Assembly: GCA_016192705.1 (NCBI GenBank)
Contig: JACPTQ010000030.1
Span: 1 to 64,000 of the forward strand
Source of the DNA: Deltaproteobacteria bacterium
GTDB taxonomy: Bacteria; Myxococcota; JACPTQ01
Direction of reading: 5' to 3'
DNA: 64,000 nt
In this document: positions 39,789 to 48,277 of the stretch, in pieces
Position numbering within the stretch: the stretch's first letter is position 1
Layout of the letters: each line of letters starts with the position of its first letter
The notes under the pieces: model-generated
What the model was told of the DNA's origin: nothing
The model's input: only the letters and a program-made list of their open reading frames with translations
The model's database searches: none
Made by a program: the position numbers and the translations under genes

Positions 39789-41024
39789 ATGTCCACGTCG
39801 ATCGAAGAACAGTGGGCGGAGCTGATGCGCGGGGTCGTCGATTTGCACGTCGCCGACGAGCTCAAAAAGAAACTCGCGCGCGGAAAACCGCTCGTTGTTA
39901 AGGCGGGCTTTGACCCGAGCGCGCCCGATTTGCACCTCGGACACACCGTCGTTTTTCGAAAGATGCGCCAGTTCCAGGACTTTGGGCACACGGTCGTCTT
40001 TTTGATCGGCGACTTCACGGGGATGATCGGCGACCCGACCGGGAAATCCGCGACGCGAAAGGCGCTCACGCGCGAGGACGTCGCCACAAACGCCGAAACT
40101 TACAAGCGGCAAGTTTTCAAAATCCTCGACCCCGAGCGGACGGTTGTGCGCTTCAACAGCGAATGGCTCGGCGCGCTGACGTCGATCGACGTGATCTCGC
40201 TCGCCGCGAAATACAACGTCGCGCGAATGCTCGAGCGGGACGACTTTAAGAACCGCTATCGCACGGGACAATCGATCAGCGTACACGAATTCCTTTACCC
40301 TCTCATGCAAGCGTACGACTCGGTTGCGCTCAAGGCCGATGTCGAACTGGGCGGAACCGACCAGCTTTTTAATTTGCTTGTTGGGCGCACGATCATGCAG
40401 GCGTACGGGCTCGAGCCGCAGTGCGTGATGACAACGCCGATCCTGGAAGGGCTCGACGCGAAGGTCGAGGACGGAAAACTCGTCGGCGACAAAATGTCAA
40501 AATCGCTCGGCAACACCGTCGGCATTACTGAGCCCGCAAAGGAAATCTTCGGCAAAGTGATGAGCGTGTCGGACGACTTGATGTGGCGCTATTATGAACT
40601 GTTGTCGACACGACCGCTCGCCGAGATTGCAAAGTTGCGTGCCGATGTCGCCGCTGGCGCGGCGCACCCAAAGGCCGCGAAAGTCGCACTCGCCGTCGAG
40701 ATCGCAGAGCGGTACGCGGGTCGCGCGGAGGCGGAGGCCGCGGCCGCTGAATTTGAGCGCATCTTTGCGAAGGGGGCGCTGCCGGACGAGGTCGAGGGCG
40801 CGGAGGTTTCGGTTGAAGGCGCCGATCGTCCCGTGATTCCACTTGCGAAGGCGATAGCATCGGCAGGCTTAGCGGCGTCGATCTCTGAGGCGCGGCGTCT
40901 CATCGCGCAAGGCGGTGTCGAAGTCGATGGTGCACGCGTCACGGATGTCAAGCACGAGCTCACCGTTGGTGAATTCCTTATTCGCGCTGGCAAACGTCGC
41001 TTCAAGCGGGTTCGCGTGCGTTGA
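39789..41024 (+). CDS. tyrS: Tyrosyl-tRNA synthetase
   Basis: 411 aa. Class I signatures: HLGH (residues 49-52) and KMSKS (235-239), with the tyrosine pocket and [10 protein letters not shown] between. A C-terminal S4 RNA-binding domain ([23 protein letters not shown]...) is present. Length and motif spacing match the TyrS type with KMSKS rather than KFGKS. ATG 39789 follows GAGGAAACG. The TGA overlaps a TTG start for the substrate-binding lipoprotein (TTGA). Confidence 0.95.
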
Positions 41025-42724
41025 AGCGTTCGCGTGCCTTTCGCTCGCATGTTCTCCTGCCCGCTGCTTCGATCCTCTTTTCGACCTGCGCCTCCTCCGA
41101 CGGCCGGGCGCCTACCGCCCGCGCTTTCACAATCCTTCTCGAATCCGCGCCCTACGAAATCGACCCGCGCGTTGCGATCACATCGCACGGTCTCAAAATC
41201 TCGCAACTCATTTTTTGCGGGCTCACGCGCATCGACGAAAAGTTGAACGTCATCCCCGACCTCGCGGAGCGCTGGGAGATCGCCGACGATGGCCGCACCG
41301 TCACGTTCTTTTTGCGGTCCGGCATCAAGTTTCACGACGGCCAGCCCGTCACCGCGCGCGACGTGAAATTCACGTACGATACGCTTCTCGACGAGCGCTT
41401 CGGCTCGCGCTACCACGGCGTCTACCGCGACAAGATTCGCAGCGTCGACGCACTCGACGACCACACCGTCCGCTTTCGCCTCCACCACGCGCAGGCGCCG
41501 TTTCTCGCCGACGTCACGACCGGTATCGTTCCCGCGCATCTCGGCGGTGCGACACGCGACGCGCGCGTGAAATTCGAGTCCATCCTCATTGGAAGCGGCC
41601 CCTTCAAATTCGTCTCGCGCGCGGGCGACGATCTCGTCACGCTCGCCGCAAACCCTCATCACCACACGGGTCCACCCAACCTTTCCCACCTCTCTTTCCG
41701 CGTCGTGCGAAATGAAGTCACGCGCTACCTCGAACTCGTAAAGGGCGACGCCGACCTCGTGCAAAACGCGCTTTCGCCGCTCTACCTCCCCCTCATCACG
41801 TCGAACCCTGCGCTTCACGTCGAATCCGCGCCGAGCATCATTCTGACCTACATGGTCTTCAACACTCGCTCGGGCCCGCTCGCCGACGTGCGCGTTCGTC
41901 GGGCCATCGCACACGCCATCGACCGCCGCGCCATCATCGCCGCGAAGATGCGCGGCAACGCCACCGTCGCCCGCGCCTTTCTCTCGGACGCACACCCCTT
42001 CACCTCACCCGATATCACAGAGATCCCGTTCGACCGCGACCGCGCGCGCACCCTGCTTGACGAAGCGGGTTACACGCTTCGAGGTGCCACGCGGTTTCGC
42101 CTGACGTACAAAACTTCGACCGACCGCTTTCGCCTCTCGATCGCGCGCGTCATCGCGATGCAGCTTCGCGAAGTCGGCGTCGAGATCGACGTTCGCCCCT
42201 ACGAATTCGGAACGTTCTTCGCCGATATTCGCAAGGGCGCCTTCGAAATCGCGTCGATGCAGTGGCCCGAGTTCGACGAGCCCGACGCGCTGCATATGCT
42301 CTTTCATTCATCGCGCATTCCAACGCCCGACAATCCGCACGTCGCGCGCTTTGCCGCCGCTTGGACCGTGGCGCACGCCCTACCGATCGTCGCAAACGCC
42401 CACGGTTCACCGGCCGCGCCGATCGCGTTGCCGCTCGCCCTCGGCGTTCCGCCGCCCGCCGACGGATCCAACCGCGCTGGGTACTTATCGGCCGAGGTCG
42501 ACGCGCTTCTCGCAACGGCGCAGCGTACGTTCGATTCGGCAACGCGCCGCGCGCTGTACACCGCCGCCGAACGAGCGCTCATGCGCGATTTGCCGATGCT
42601 GCCCCTATGGCACGAGCACAACATCGCGATCACGCGCCGCAAAGTCGTGGGCCTCAAGCCGCAACCCAACGGCAAACTCTACATGCTGCGCAACGTCGCC
42701 CTTGCGCCCGACGCGCATCCATGA
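41021..42724 (+). CDS. Peptide/nickel-type ABC transporter substrate-binding lipoprotein (family 5)
   Basis: 567 aa. The signal ends in SILFSTC, suitable for lipidation. Family 5 features: [64 protein letters not shown], and later [17 protein letters not shown]. These proteins bind di-/oligopeptides or related solutes and hand them to the two permeases encoded next. The TTG 41021 start overlaps the tyrS stop. A stretch at about 470-490 is Pro/Gly-rich. No ATPase genes follow, so a shared ATPase must come from elsewhere. Confidence 0.87.
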
Positions 42725-42958
42725 CGCTCGTCCGCGCCCGCTTCCGCTCCTCGCTTTCCGCACCCGCATCCGCTTCTGCGCCCGCCATCCTGTCGTGCTC
42801 TTCCTCGTCGTCGTTGTCGTGCGCGTGCTCGTCCTCGTGCTCGTATTCGATTCACGAGGATGAGAAACGATGACGAGGACGTGTACGGTTTACGAGCACG
42901 ACGACGACTACGAAACCCGTCCCCACGCCCCCGAGGTCCCCCGATGACGCTCGTCCGC
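42721..42958. repeat. Hexamer-tract insertion with 15-bp direct repeats at the permease start
   Basis: ATGACGCTCGTCCGC occurs at 42721-42735 (overlapping the previous stop as ATGA) and again at 42944-42958, where it is the real permease start. Between lie CCGCNN hexamers, TCGTCG/CTCGTC hexamers, and then their reverse complements (ACGAGG, ACGACG), giving a long imperfect hairpin (about 42797-42912). The first copy leads only into a 50-codon low-complexity frame. Confidence 0.75.
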
Positions 42959-43885
42959 TTCATCGCTCGCCGCCTCGTCGCCGCGCTCGGCGTCGCTCTC
43001 GGTGCCGCAACGCTCGTCTTCCTCGTCGCGCGTCTCGCGCCAGGCGACCCTGTCGACATCTACCTCGGCGAACAAGGCCTCCAAGTCGATCGCGACCGCA
43101 TCCGCGCTGAGCGTCACCTCGACGCGCCACTCCCGGTGCAGTACGCCTACTACTTGAAATCGCTGGCCGACGGCTCACTCGGCCGCCCCATTCGCCAACC
43201 CGACCGCACCGTCCTCTCGCTCATCCTCGATCGCTTCCCCGCAACACTCCGCCTCGCCCTCGCCGCCATGGCGATCGCCCTCCTCATCGCGCTCCCGCTC
43301 GGCGTCTTCGCCGCGATTCGCCGCGGCACGCTCTTCGACAACTTCGCGATGCTCCTGTCGCTTGTGGGCGTTTCAACGCCCGCGTTCTTTCTCGGCCCGC
43401 TCCTCCTCCTCGTCTTCTCGGTCGGCCTCGGTCTCTTCCCCGTGTCCGGCGACCGCGGGCTCACGTCGCTCGTCCTCCCCGCGATAACGCTCGGCCTTGC
43501 CCTCGCCGCGATGCTCTCGCGCATGACGCGCTCGTCGATGCTCGAAGTCCTCTCCGACGACTACATCACAACCGCGCGCGCAAAGGGCCTCAGCGAGCGC
43601 CGCGTCGTTTGGGTCCACGCACTTCGAAACGCGCTTCTCCCCATCATCACCGTCGCGGGGCTCCAATTCGGCGGCCTTCTCGCGGGCGCCGTCATCACCG
43701 AAAACGTTTTTTCATGGCCGGGCCTCGGCACGCTCCTCATCGAGGCGATCCGCGCGCGCGAATACGACGTCGTGCAGGGCTGCGTCCTTTTCTTCTCGCT
43801 CTCGTACGTCCTCGTGAACCTCGCAACCGACATCGCCTACGCCGTCGTGGACCCGCGCATTCGCGTGGTGGGGCGGGGGAAATGA
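42944..43885 (+). CDS. ABC transporter permease (DppB/OppB type)
   Basis: 313 aa from ATG 42944 (SD GAGGT), the copy of the duplicated start that keeps the family N terminus (MTLVRFIARRLVAALGVAL). Six membrane helices; signature FLVARLAPGDPVDIYLGEQG in the first periplasmic loop and the ATPase-contact EAA motif TTARAKGLSERRVVWVHALRNALLPII. Inner-membrane half of a peptide importer. Confidence 0.9.
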   Translation: MTLVRFIARRLVAALGVALGAATLVFLVARLAPGDPVDIYLGEQGLQVDRDRIRAERHLDAPLPVQYAYYLKSLADGSLGRPIRQPDRTVLSLILDRFPATLRLALAAMAIALLIALPLGVFAAIRRGTLFDNFAMLLSLVGVSTPAFFLGPLLLLVFSVGLGLFPVSGDRGLTSLVLPAITLGLALAAMLSRMTRSSMLEVLSDDYITTARAKGLSERRVVWVHALRNALLPIITVAGLQFGGLLAGAVITENVFSWPGLGTLLIEAIRAREYDVVQGCVLFFSLSYVLVNLATDIAYAVVDPRIRVVGRGK

Positions 43886-43895
43886 GGGAGGAGCA

Positions 43896-44059
43896 AAACA
43901 TCAATGTCGATCTTTCCTGGACTTGGACCTCGACCTCGACCTGGACTTGGACCTGGACCTGGACTCCTGATGGACCAGGACCAGGTCCAGGTTTAGGTCC
44001 AGGACCAGGTGAAGAGCGGAAAGCGGATGCAGTAGCGGGGATCGGGAGATGAAACATCA
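43896..44059. repeat. GGACCT/AGGTCC inverted hexamer repeat between permease genes
   Basis: Units of CCTGGA and CCTCGA (43915-43972) are followed by their complements TCCAGG/ACCAGG (43973-44012), giving arms of about 40-50 bases. AAACATCA flanks the tract on both sides (43896-43903 and 44052-44059). Confidence 0.7.
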
Positions 44060-44867
44060 TCGTGCACTCTGGGTCGGCGGCGCCATGGTCGCGATGGTGC
44101 TCGTCGTCGCGCTCTTCGCGCCACTCCTCGCGCCGTACGATCCCGACGATCCGCGCCGCGCCGTCGTGCTAGCGTCACAGCTCGCGCCCCCCTCGTCCGC
44201 GCACCCGTTCGGCAACGACGAAAACGGCGGCGACGTCCTCTCGCGCGTCGTCTACGGCGCCCGCGTTGCCGTGCGTGTCGGCGTCGCAACGGTCGCTATC
44301 TCACTCCTCATCGGCCTCGCACTCGGCTGTCTCGCAGGTTACGCAGGCGGCGCCGTCGATGGAGCCCTTATGCGCGTAACCGAAGTCGTCATGGCCTTCC
44401 CGGGGATCCTCCTCGCCATCGCCATCGTCGCCGCCACGCGCCGCCCGAGCGAAGCCGCCGTCATCCTCGCGCTCGTCTCAACCGGCTGGGCCTCTTACGC
44501 ACGCCTCGCCCGCGGCCAGGTGCTCTCCCTCAAAGAGCGCGACTACGTCACCGCCGCAAAAGCCCTCGGCGCCTCGCCCTTTTTCATCGTGCGCCGCCAC
44601 ATCATCCCAAACCTCATCCAGCCGCTCGTCATCCAAGCGTCGTTCAGCGTCGCGGGCTCGATCCTCGCCGAAGCCTCGCTCTCATTTCTCGGCCTCGGCC
44701 CCGAAGGCTCGCACTCGTGGGGCGTCCTCCTCGACCAAGGCACGCAGTGGTTCGTCCTCGCACCGCACCTCGCCATCTTCCCCGGCCTCGCCATCGCCTT
44801 CGTCGTCCTCGCGTTCAACCTTCTCGGCGATGGCCTTCGCGATTATCTCGACCCGCGGCTCAAGTAG
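44049..44867 (+). CDS. ABC transporter permease (DppC/OppC type)
   Basis: 272 aa, ATG 44049 with GGGAG upstream. N-terminal helix (GGAMVAMVLVVALFAPLLAPY), then HPFGNDENGGDVLSRVVYGAR typical of DppC, five more helices, and the EAA motif TAAKALGASPFFIVRRHIIPNLI. Partner of the DppB-type permease. Its 3' end has a diverged copy (about 92% identical by eye) at 48458-48595, pointing to a paralogous transporter elsewhere. The last 8 bp overlap the minus-strand gene. Confidence 0.9.
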   Translation: MKHHRALWVGGAMVAMVLVVALFAPLLAPYDPDDPRRAVVLASQLAPPSSAHPFGNDENGGDVLSRVVYGARVAVRVGVATVAISLLIGLALGCLAGYAGGAVDGALMRVTEVVMAFPGILLAIAIVAATRRPSEAAVILALVSTGWASYARLARGQVLSLKERDYVTAAKALGASPFFIVRRHIIPNLIQPLVIQASFSVAGSILAEASLSFLGLGPEGSHSWGVLLDQGTQWFVLAPHLAIFPGLAIAFVVLAFNLLGDGLRDYLDPRLK

Positions 44868-45255: not shown

Positions 45256-45537
45256 ATGGCGCGGATGGTGCAGTGTAAGAAGTTAAGTCGTGAGCTGCCG
45301 GGGCTAAATTTTAAGCCTTTTCAGAACGACCTCGGGCAGAAGATTTTCGATAACGTCTCAGAAGAAGCGTGGCGAATGTGGCTTGAGCACGCGAAGATGA
45401 TCATCAATGAATATCGGATGAACCTCGCCGATCCGGCGTCGCAGCAGAAGCTTCTCGACGAATGCGATCGATACTTTTTCGGTGAGGGTTCAGCGCTGCC
45501 GCCCGATTTCGTTCCGCAGACGCAAGCCGCGAAATAA
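45256..45537 (+). CDS. yggX: Probable Fe(2+)-trafficking protein YggX
   Basis: 93 aa. Recognised by MVQCKKLSRELPGL (Cys in QCKKL), KIFDNVSEEAWRMWLEHAKMIINEYRMNL and the C-terminal QKLLDECDRYFFGEG. YggX protects iron-sulfur clusters and is linked to iron supply and oxidative stress. SD GGGAGG. It lies 15 bp before the radical SAM selenoprotein gene, which may reflect a shared need for iron-sulfur cluster maintenance; the pairing is inference. Confidence 0.92.
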   Translation: MARMVQCKKLSRELPGLNFKPFQNDLGQKIFDNVSEEAWRMWLEHAKMIINEYRMNLADPASQQKLLDECDRYFFGEGSALPPDFVPQTQAAK

Positions 45538-45552
45538 CGTCCGAGCGATTCG

Positions 45553-47019
45553 GTGCGCGAAGAGGTGTCCGTGCATAGCGAGAGCGACGTTGTCGGATGG
45601 CGCGATCGGGGAGGGGTCGTCCTCGTGTCGTGCTATGAGCTCGGACATCAGCCGCTTGCGATCGCCTCGGTCGTGCCCCATTTCATCGAAGCCGGGTTTC
45701 AACCGGTTTGCGTTGACGTTTCGACCGAGCGATTCGATCCGGCGGCTGTTTCGCGCGCGCGCTTCGTGGCGATCTCGGTGCCGATGCATACGGCGCTTCG
45801 AATCGGCGTGCGGGTGGCTGAAGAGGTGCGGCGGGTCAACGGGAGCGCACAGATCGCGTTTTTTGGTCTGTACGCCGCGCTCAACCACGAATTTCTTCTG
45901 GGGCGTTACGGTGATGCGTGTCTCGGCGGTGAGACCGACGGCCCGTTGGTTGCGCTCGCCAAGAGACTCGAAGCGGGTGAGTCGCACGAGCAACTGGGCG
46001 CGATGTCAAAGGTCCACCTCGAACGGCCGCGCTTTTTTCTTCCCGTGCGGGACGGCTTGCCACCGCTCAGGCGTTATGCGCGGCTTGAGAAGGGCGGGCA
46101 GCAGATTTTGGCGGGCGCTGTCGAGGCGAGTCGCGGGTGTTTGCATCGGTGTCGCCACTGCCCGATCACGCCGATTTACAACGGGCGGTTCTTTGTGGTT
46201 CCCGAGGAGATCGTTCTATCGGACATCGCGGCGCTCGTCGCGCGTGGCGCGGGTCACATCACGTTCGCGGACCCGGACTTCCTCAATGGACCGACGCACG
46301 CCGTTCGGATCGCGCGGGTGCTGCACGCACGCTGGCCCGCGCTGTCGTTCGATTTCACGGCGAAGGTTGAACATCTTCTTCGTCACGCGGTGCTCGCCAC
46401 GGAGTTTGCGGCGCTCGGGTGCGCGTTCGTCGTGACTGCCGTTGAGTCGTTTAGCGACGTTGTGCTCGAGAACTTGAAGAAGGGGCATACACGCGATGGG
46501 GCGATTGCGGCACTTCGAATGGTGCGACAGGCCGGGATTTCGGTGCACCCGTCGTTTGTGCCGTTCACGCCGTGGACGACCCGCGGCGACTACGTGACGA
46601 TGCTCGACCTCTTGGAGGCTGAAGATTTGGTGGATAGCGTCGACCCGATTCAGCTCGCGATCCGGCTTTTGGTGCCGCCGAGATCCGCGCTCTTGTCCGA
46701 GCCGGTGATGACTTCGTATCTCGGTCCGGTTGACCGCGAGAACTTTGTGGTGCCGTGGCGACATCCCGACCCGTCGATGGACACGCTGCAGAGCGAAGTC
46801 GTCGCGATGGTGGCGGATGCCGTGGCGCGTGGGGAAGCGCCGGCGACGACGTTTCGCGCGGTGAAGCGGCTTGCGAGCGCGGGAAGCGATAGGACACTGG
46901 ATTTCGTCCCTCATCGCGAGCCGCCGCCGCGCCTCACCGAGCCGTGGTTTTGCTGAGCGGAGCCAACCGAGGGCCAGTTGGGCCTTCTGACGCCACTTCG
47001 CGAAGCTCGAGCGGTATGA
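45553..47019 (+). CDS. CUAEP-tail radical SAM selenoprotein (in-frame TGA as selenocysteine)
   Basis: 488 aa when TGA 46954-46956 is read as selenocysteine (U468). N-terminal cobalamin-binding-like fold (VVLVSCYELGHQPLAIASV), then the radical SAM cluster motif C196-x3-C200-x2-C203 (SRGCLHRCRHCPI). Without recoding the frame stops after TEPWFC; through the TGA it continues A-E-P-TEGQLGLLTPLREARAV to a stop at 47017-47019. The C-U-A-E-P tail matches a radical SAM family named for CUAEP or CCAEP endings. A stem-loop (CCAAC 46963-46967 / GTTGG 46977-46981, 9-base loop) sits where a bacterial SECIS would be. Start GTG 45553; GTG 45571 with GAGG upstream is possible. Reaction unknown. Confidence 0.85.
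46957..46985 (+). promoter_or_regulatory. Candidate bacterial SECIS element
   Basis: Directly 3' of TGA 46954-46956: stem CCAAC/GTTGG closing CGAGGGCCA, apical loop starting 11 bases after the TGA, near the position of the fdhF SECIS upper stem-loop. An alternative GGCC/GGCC stem overlaps it, so the exact fold is uncertain. Confidence 0.5.
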
Positions 47020-47026: not shown

Positions 47027-48277
47027 ATGAAGCGCATCTTGCTGCTCGCACCTGCGACGACGTATCGCGCGGGGGCGTTCTTGAAAGCGGCGCATGCGCT
47101 TCGGGTCGACGTCGTTCATGGGTCCGACGGCCCGAACCTTCTTTCCGCGATGCTTCCTTCGCGAATCGTCGAGCTCGATTTTCGCAACGCCGATCTTTCG
47201 GCGGACCGAGCCGCGGCCTTCGCCAAGTTGAACCCGATCGACGCGATCGTCGCCGTCGACGACACGACGACCGTTCTCGGCGCGCGTGTCGCCGCGGAGC
47301 TTGGCCTAACAGCGAATCCGGTTTCGGCCGTTCGAGCGACACGCGACAAAGCCCTCATGCGCAGACTGCTCGCTGGGTACGAAGCCGGTGACGTGGCGGG
47401 GGGTGAAACGCCTTGGTTTCAAACGGTATCGATCGACGACAACCCGCGCGAACGGTTTGAACGCGTTTCGTATCCGATCGTCATGAAGCCGACGCTTTTG
47501 TCAGCGAGCCGTGGCGTCATCCGCGCCAATTCGCTCGACGAATCGATAAGCGCGTTTCATCGCATCCGGCGAATTCTCGCGGCGCCTAATGTTGCAGGGT
47601 GCGGTGGAGCGAGTGATCAAATTCTCGTCGAGGAGTTTGTTCCGGGCATCGAGGTCGCCGTCGAAGCGCTGCTTTGGGGCGGAAAGCTAGAACTGCTCGC
47701 GCTTTTCGACAAGCCAGACCCGCTCGACGGGCCGTTCTTCGAAGAGACGATCTACGTGACGCCGTCGTCGCTGCCGGGCCCTGTTCAATCCGCCATCGCC
47801 CTTCAAACGGAGCGAGAGGCGCGCCGGCTCGGGCTTCGCGAGGGGCCCGTCCATGCGGAACTTCGGCTCAGTCCGCGGGGCCCCGTGATCATCGAAATCG
47901 CATCGCGATCGATCGGCGGCCTTTGCTCGCAGATGCTTCGCTTCGGCGCCGGAATGTCGCTTGAGGAGGTCATCTTGCGTCAAGCCCTTCATCTTTCGCT
48001 CCCGACGCTCGATCGCGAACGTGGAGCAGAGGGCGTGATGATGATCCCCATCCCACGCGAAGGGACGCTCGTGGCGGTTCGTGGTCGCGAGCAGGCTCTC
48101 GCGGTTCCTGGCATCAGTGACGTCATCATCTCCATTCGCGTTGGCGAACGCGTGGTTCCGCTCCCCGAGGGGAGTCGGTATCTCGGTTTTATTTTCGCGC
48201 GCGCGGAGACGCCCGATCGCGCGGTCGCTCTCCTTCGTGAGGCGCATGGACGGCTGGCGTTCGATATCGTCCCCTGA
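47027..48277 (+). CDS. ATP-grasp ligase next to the radical SAM selenoprotein
   Basis: 416 aa. N-terminal nucleotide-binding-like part (MKRILLLAPATTYRAGAFLKAA, VAVDDTTTVLGARVAAELGL), then the ATP-grasp core: YPIVMKPTLLSASRGV (ATP lysine), ILVEEFVPGIEVAVEALL, HAELRLSPRGPVIIEIASRSIGG (metal-binding E/E/N-like region). This resembles carboxylate-amine ligases such as L-amino-acid or dipeptide ligases. Seven bases separate it from the selenoprotein stop, so the two probably act in one pathway that forms and modifies a small molecule or peptide; substrate unknown. Confidence 0.85.
   Translation: MKRILLLAPATTYRAGAFLKAAHALRVDVVHGSDGPNLLSAMLPSRIVELDFRNADLSADRAAAFAKLNPIDAIVAVDDTTTVLGARVAAELGLTANPVSAVRATRDKALMRRLLAGYEAGDVAGGETPWFQTVSIDDNPRERFERVSYPIVMKPTLLSASRGVIRANSLDESISAFHRIRRILAAPNVAGCGGASDQILVEEFVPGIEVAVEALLWGGKLELLALFDKPDPLDGPFFEETIYVTPSSLPGPVQSAIALQTEREARRLGLREGPVHAELRLSPRGPVIIEIASRSIGGLCSQMLRFGAGMSLEEVILRQALHLSLPTLDRERGAEGVMMIPIPREGTLVAVRGREQALAVPGISDVIISIRVGERVVPLPEGSRYLGFIFARAETPDRAVALLREAHGRLAFDIVP

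Follow-up and report, generated by a model that had tools for sequence, protein, structure and literature searches.

A predicted CUAEP-tail radical SAM selenoprotein encoded between an iron-trafficking gene and an ATP-grasp ligase gene in a Myxococcota genome

The sister family of the radical SAM proteins with a CUAEP tail is ArsL (NF040542), responsible for synthesis of the arsenic antibiotic arsinothricin. ArsL acts on arsenite (PMC8552651), and later biochemical work on it is cited in PMC12159101. The CUAEP proteins themselves are catalogued as NCBIfam NF040546, the CUAEP/CCAEP-tail radical SAM (seleno)proteins, with a cut-off of 500 bits. Our literature search found no function for NF040546 and no paper naming the CUAEP or RCCLKC family, a description in the Haft selenoprotein papers being possible.

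In the window, the whole 64,000-nt stretch of DNA that was analysed, a plus-strand reading frame opens at GTG 45553 or at GTG 45571, an equally plausible start preceded by GAAGAGG, and reaches an in-frame TGA after ...TEPWFC, with TGC 46951–46953 directly before it (Table 1). Past this TGA the frame stays open for 20 sense codons (AEPTEGQLGLLTPLREARAV) to TGA 47017–47019, which lies 7 nt upstream of the ATG (47027) of the next gene. A preliminary description made from the sequence alone had given 21 open codons; its end point at 47017 is correct, but the figure of 21 counts the Sec codon as well. The C-U-A-E-P tail given by an in-frame TGA and the N-terminal CYELGHQPL that it pointed out are both present in the window.

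Membership of the CUAEP/CCAEP-tail family, which had also been proposed, is borne out by profile comparison. The readthrough protein scores 627.6 bits against NF040546 over profile positions 1–467 of 468, passing through the TGA, and the C-TGA-AEP motif at 46951–46965 corresponds to the C-[U/C]-A-E-P tail that defines the family. The Pfam search gave Radical_SAM (PF04055) at 49.1 bits (cut-off 29.5). ArsL came second among the families, at 291.1 bits, under its cut-off of 450, and the tail is not RCCLKC. Judged by its sequence, the gene belongs, in the Sec form, to an already named family from which nothing of substance sets it apart: it shares the full-length match over the equivalog cut-off, the tail motif and the alternation of Cys and Sec.

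Table 1. Coordinates of the features described at the CUAEP locus
Feature	Position in window	Strand	Basis
yggX-type Fe(2+)-trafficking / oxidative damage protection gene	45256..45537	+	PF04362, 118.7 bits; NF003817, 120.8 bits (cut-off 74)
Predicted CUAEP-tail radical SAM selenoprotein, 488 residues with TGA 46954–46956 as Sec	45553..47019	+	NF040546, PF04055, AlphaFold2
CxxxCxxC radical SAM cluster motif (CLHRCRHC)	46138..46161	+	Invariant Cys triad, common to ArsL
Cys-Sec-Ala-Glu-Pro-Thr tail motif; UGA 46954–46956	46951..46968	+	Invariant residues in relatives
Bacterial SECIS-like hairpin, stem GAGGGCC / loop AGUUG / GGCCUUC	46969..46987	+	Conserved position, loop and pair changes
ATP-grasp ligase with L-amino-acid-ligase C-terminal domain (LAL_C2)	47027..48277	+	PF13535, 100 bits; PF18603, 61 bits

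Standard gene callers had been expected to cut such a gene short, and a copy on a Thermomicrobium roseum plasmid (L133, NC_011961.1, 7923–9359) provides an example. It is labelled CUAEP/CCAEP-tail, its CDS ends at the Sec TGA after ...PRLTESWFC, and an open tail containing EP lies beyond that TGA.

All four selenocysteine genes named in the preliminary description (selA, selB, selC and selD) were found in the bacterium's own assembly (5.2 Mb, 88 contigs), with scores of 467 bits for SelA, 281 bits for SelB (307 with its second piece), 368 bits for SelD and 76 bits for tRNA-Sec (selC). The SelD gene (G000:C70:50295-51221, L128) has one in-frame TGA and is apparently itself a selenoprotein gene, as is known for many SelD.

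Relatives were drawn from species genomes (80) and from the bacterium's own phylum (30), to be taken as Myxococcota from the Anaeromyxobacter members in it. A tail could be read in 106 loci; at the Sec site, 94 of these have TGA, 7 TGC and 5 TGT. The 30 Myxococcota matches over the cut-off comprise 29 with one TGA and a single Cys-type sequence. SelA over the cut-off is present in 30 of 35 TGA-form genomes vs none of 12 Cys-form genomes (Fisher p = 1.2e-7). The five TGA-form genomes without such a SelA are four metagenome assemblies of unstated completeness and G010, which is 92% complete. Rather than ending at the Cys with nothing conserved after the stop, homologues from at least 10 phyla keep the tail beyond the TGA, and E457, W459, F460, C461, [U/C]462, E464 and P465 are invariant in a 65-row alignment, as are the cluster cysteines C190, C194 and C197 (A2 numbering) among the 65 relatives.

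The stem-loop that had been noted at SECIS distance is present as well. Its arms (46969–46975 and 46981–46987) form seven contiguous pairs around the loop at 46976–46980, which begins 20 nt after the UGA and has G as its second base, a SECIS being expected to carry a G in the first two. An Rfam scan of the window returned a tRNA as its sole match. Taken by itself, the hairpin is unremarkable (MFE z = -0.30; p = 0.055 in a synonymous-codon shuffle), and this speaks for reading the TGA as a true stop, with the tail a product of chance or a remnant. Across the family, the hairpin goes far beyond chance, and in TGA forms only: mean pairs number 6.2 in 93 TGA forms vs 3.2 in synonymous-codon shuffles, and 2.1 vs 2.1 in the 12 Cys forms, while at least five contiguous pairs at that register occur in 87% of the TGA forms vs none of the 12 Cys forms. 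The loop is usually AGUU or AGUUN, again starting 20 nt after the UGA. The bases on both sides of the stem vary with pairing preserved. Within the TGA forms that have at least five pairs, a restriction that selects the percentage of pairing and leaves the variety of pair types unselected, pair +18/+26 occurs as C-G, U-A, G-C and U-G, and pair +15/+29 as G-C, C-G, A-U and G-U.

This conservation of the SECIS, the correlation of SelA with the TGA form and the retention of the tail with Cys/Sec exchange in so many phyla together count against a true stop, which we regard as highly improbable. Recoding of the UGA is very likely because the conserved SECIS hairpin and the Sec machinery occur together, and it is close to certain, as far as sequence comparison can tell, that the TGA is a Sec codon and the gene encodes a genuine selenoprotein of the NF040546 family.

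Some Anaeromyxobacter-type loci (L143, L162 and L164) show a further feature of the tail. Residues after UAEP vary there, as in L143 and L164, where the amino acids following AEP differ, while the hairpin persists or appears shifted. This suggests that the final residues of these tails matter for the RNA and not for the protein.

As far as the papers found in our literature search show, none of which treats it, the gene context of CUAEP is the new information here. In the window, yggX lies directly upstream, the next ORF starting 15 nt further on, and the ATP-grasp ligase gene follows, giving the order yggX, CUAEP, ATP-grasp. The nearest solved structure to the ligase is that of the L-amino acid ligase BL00235 (3vot, E 2e-28); with BL00235 and BacD it shares the ATP-grasp core and LAL_C2, at low similarity. 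Homologues of the ligase occur within 3 kb of CUAEP in 44 of 107 loci.

In 71 of 107 loci, spread over at least eight phyla, CUAEP has an iron or iron-sulfur gene (YggX, Nfu, IscA or Suf) no more than 1 kb away. Loci of a single clade do not count as independent, but the pattern returns in those phyla with different iron-sulfur genes. The partner differs between lineages. Within 1 kb, a YggX homologue is found in 30 of 30 Myxococcota loci and in two Chloroflexota loci, Nfu/NifU in 17 of 18 Rokubacteria loci and also in Acidobacteria, IscA in all 10 Nitrospinota loci, and a Suf set in Ignavibacteria-type and Methylomirabilota loci. Matches to YggX, Nfu, IscA and SufU taken together number 79 in 204 kb of adjacent DNA vs 0 in 623 kb at a distance of 4–9 kb. 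We therefore consider it probable that the role of the family has to do with the handling of iron-sulfur clusters or iron. On balance we also favour the fuller reading of this locus, that of a genuine NF040546 selenoprotein in an apparent yggX-CUAEP-ATP-grasp operon with such a role.

Other neighbours are confined to particular lineages. Near CUAEP in Caldilineaceae (11 loci), neither an iron-sulfur gene nor an ATP-grasp gene was found; the neighbours there (NAPRTase and others) are lineage-specific and were set aside as partners. An oligopeptide/nickel-type ABC transporter at 41021–44867, upstream of yggX in the window, has homologues near some Rokubacteria loci only; it is no conserved partner, and its proximity is probably a coincidence. 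DUF169 (PF02596) accompanies CUAEP in most Planctomycetota loci and is also its neighbour in some Nitrospirae and Poribacteria (L013, L015, L027, L030, L031, L033, L037, L040, L045, L069, L070 and L088), and may share the CUAEP pathway.

The proximity of CUAEP to these iron and iron-sulfur genes would also suit an enzyme whose target for modification is a protein, YggX, Nfu or IscA for instance, instead of one taking part in small-molecule synthesis, and Dph2 offers a precedent for aminocarboxypropyl transfer onto a protein (PMC8552651). However, the iron-sulfur neighbour varies by phylum, while the ATP-grasp of L-amino-acid-ligase type recurs. L-amino-acid ligases act on free amino acids, which counts further against protein modification, and we judge this alternative rather improbable.

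Kinship to ArsL provides a second line of evidence on function. CUAEP and ArsL are about 27–34% identical over 83–86% of the query, and 45 positions conserved at ≥95% in CUAEP are identical in four ArsL/RCCLKC proteins (MAFFT). The same alignment places the Cys-Cys of the ArsL tail on the Cys-Sec of CUAEP, a result of alignment only, with a long gap preceding the tail. A vicinal Cys pair thus marks the C-terminal tail of both families, and ATP-grasp ligases are found in several ArsL-type clusters too. CUAEP differs in its WFC-U-AEP tail vs RCCLKC, in a longer linker and in having iron-sulfur instead of arsenic genes around it. Three RCCLKC/ArsL-type plasmid clusters, from Priestia, Pantoea and Alicyclobacillus (L135, L136 and L137), carry ATP-grasp ligases with 22–27% identity to that of the window; their presence suggests that the arsenical amino acid may be built into peptides.

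An arsenic operon around CUAEP was considered and rejected. When seeds taken from ArsL plasmids (ArsB, ArsC, ArsR, ArsQ, ArsM, ArsN1 and aquaporin) were searched against the ORFs of the 107 CUAEP loci, the only matches were four weak ArsM-like methyltransferases, and no ArsB-, ArsC-, ArsR-, ArsN1- or ArsQ-like gene was found near the 107 CUAEP genes. Because the neighbourhoods lack arsenic genes apart from these weak matches, the substrate is not obviously arsenite.

The AlphaFold2 model of the protein has a mean pLDDT of 93.8, with about 83–89 in the tail, whose placement is thus of fair confidence, and a weaker linker (74) before it. By Foldseek, the fold resembles B12-type radical SAM enzymes (E 3e-16 to 3e-13; TM about 0.55–0.67 by query). 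OxsB, TsrM, AprD4 and MgmA have the overall fold in common with CUAEP, but identity is only 16–18%, and the B12-binding domain (PF02310) scores 22.1 bits against a cut-off of 32.1 in the CUAEP protein, whose fold matches OxsB and TsrM. AprD4, structurally as close, does not use cobalamin.

The vicinal Cys-Sec of the tail is itself open to two interpretations. A Cys-Sec of this kind is a classic redox pair, as at the C-terminus of mammalian thioredoxin reductase, and the YggX neighbours carry names for protection from oxidative damage; the pair could accordingly form a selenenylsulfide that returns the active site to its reduced state with every turnover and hold no metalloid or other soft substrate. 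However, the sister enzyme ArsL, whose substrate is arsenite (PMC8552651), carries a Cys-Cys at the corresponding alignment position, and neighbour clustering gave no recurrent thioredoxin-like or reductase partner. A purely redox function of the pair appears unlikely, if less so than protein modification.

Chemistry of the ArsL type is the other interpretation. By its kinship, CUAEP may catalyse aminocarboxypropyl chemistry like that of ArsL, a possibility to which we give slightly less than even weight. In such a scheme, CUAEP would act as an ArsL-like radical SAM enzyme and cleave SAM to yield a 3-amino-3-carboxypropyl group. The C-terminal Cys-Sec pair, as the counterpart of the Cys-Cys in the RCCLKC tail of ArsL, would fold back and hold a soft (thiophilic/selenophilic) substrate. 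The adjacent ATP-grasp ligase would then couple the amino-acid-like product to another amino acid, and the resulting compound would serve iron-sulfur cluster assembly, delivery or repair. That the whole chain holds, from ArsL-like cleavage through Cys-Sec holding and ligation to the iron-sulfur role, is a tentative proposal and, taken as a whole, a rather unlikely one. More speculative, and doubtful as a general statement, is its extension across many phyla, in which CUAEP and the ATP-grasp ligase would make a new small amino-acid-derived compound for iron-sulfur assembly or repair, the Cys-Sec tail holding the substrate of an ArsL-type enzyme. That compound would possibly bear selenium, a metal or a metalloid.

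The gene described here, which gene callers can easily cut short, adds another member to a selenoprotein family already on record. For the family as a whole, the analysis offers three leads that the preliminary description did not contain, namely the strong link to iron-sulfur and iron-trafficking genes, the recurrent amino-acid-ligase partner and the kinship to ArsL with Cys-Sec in place of Cys-Cys. If the proposal is true, CUAEP would put selenocysteine to a new use within radical SAM chemistry, and iron-sulfur metabolism would gain a new component.
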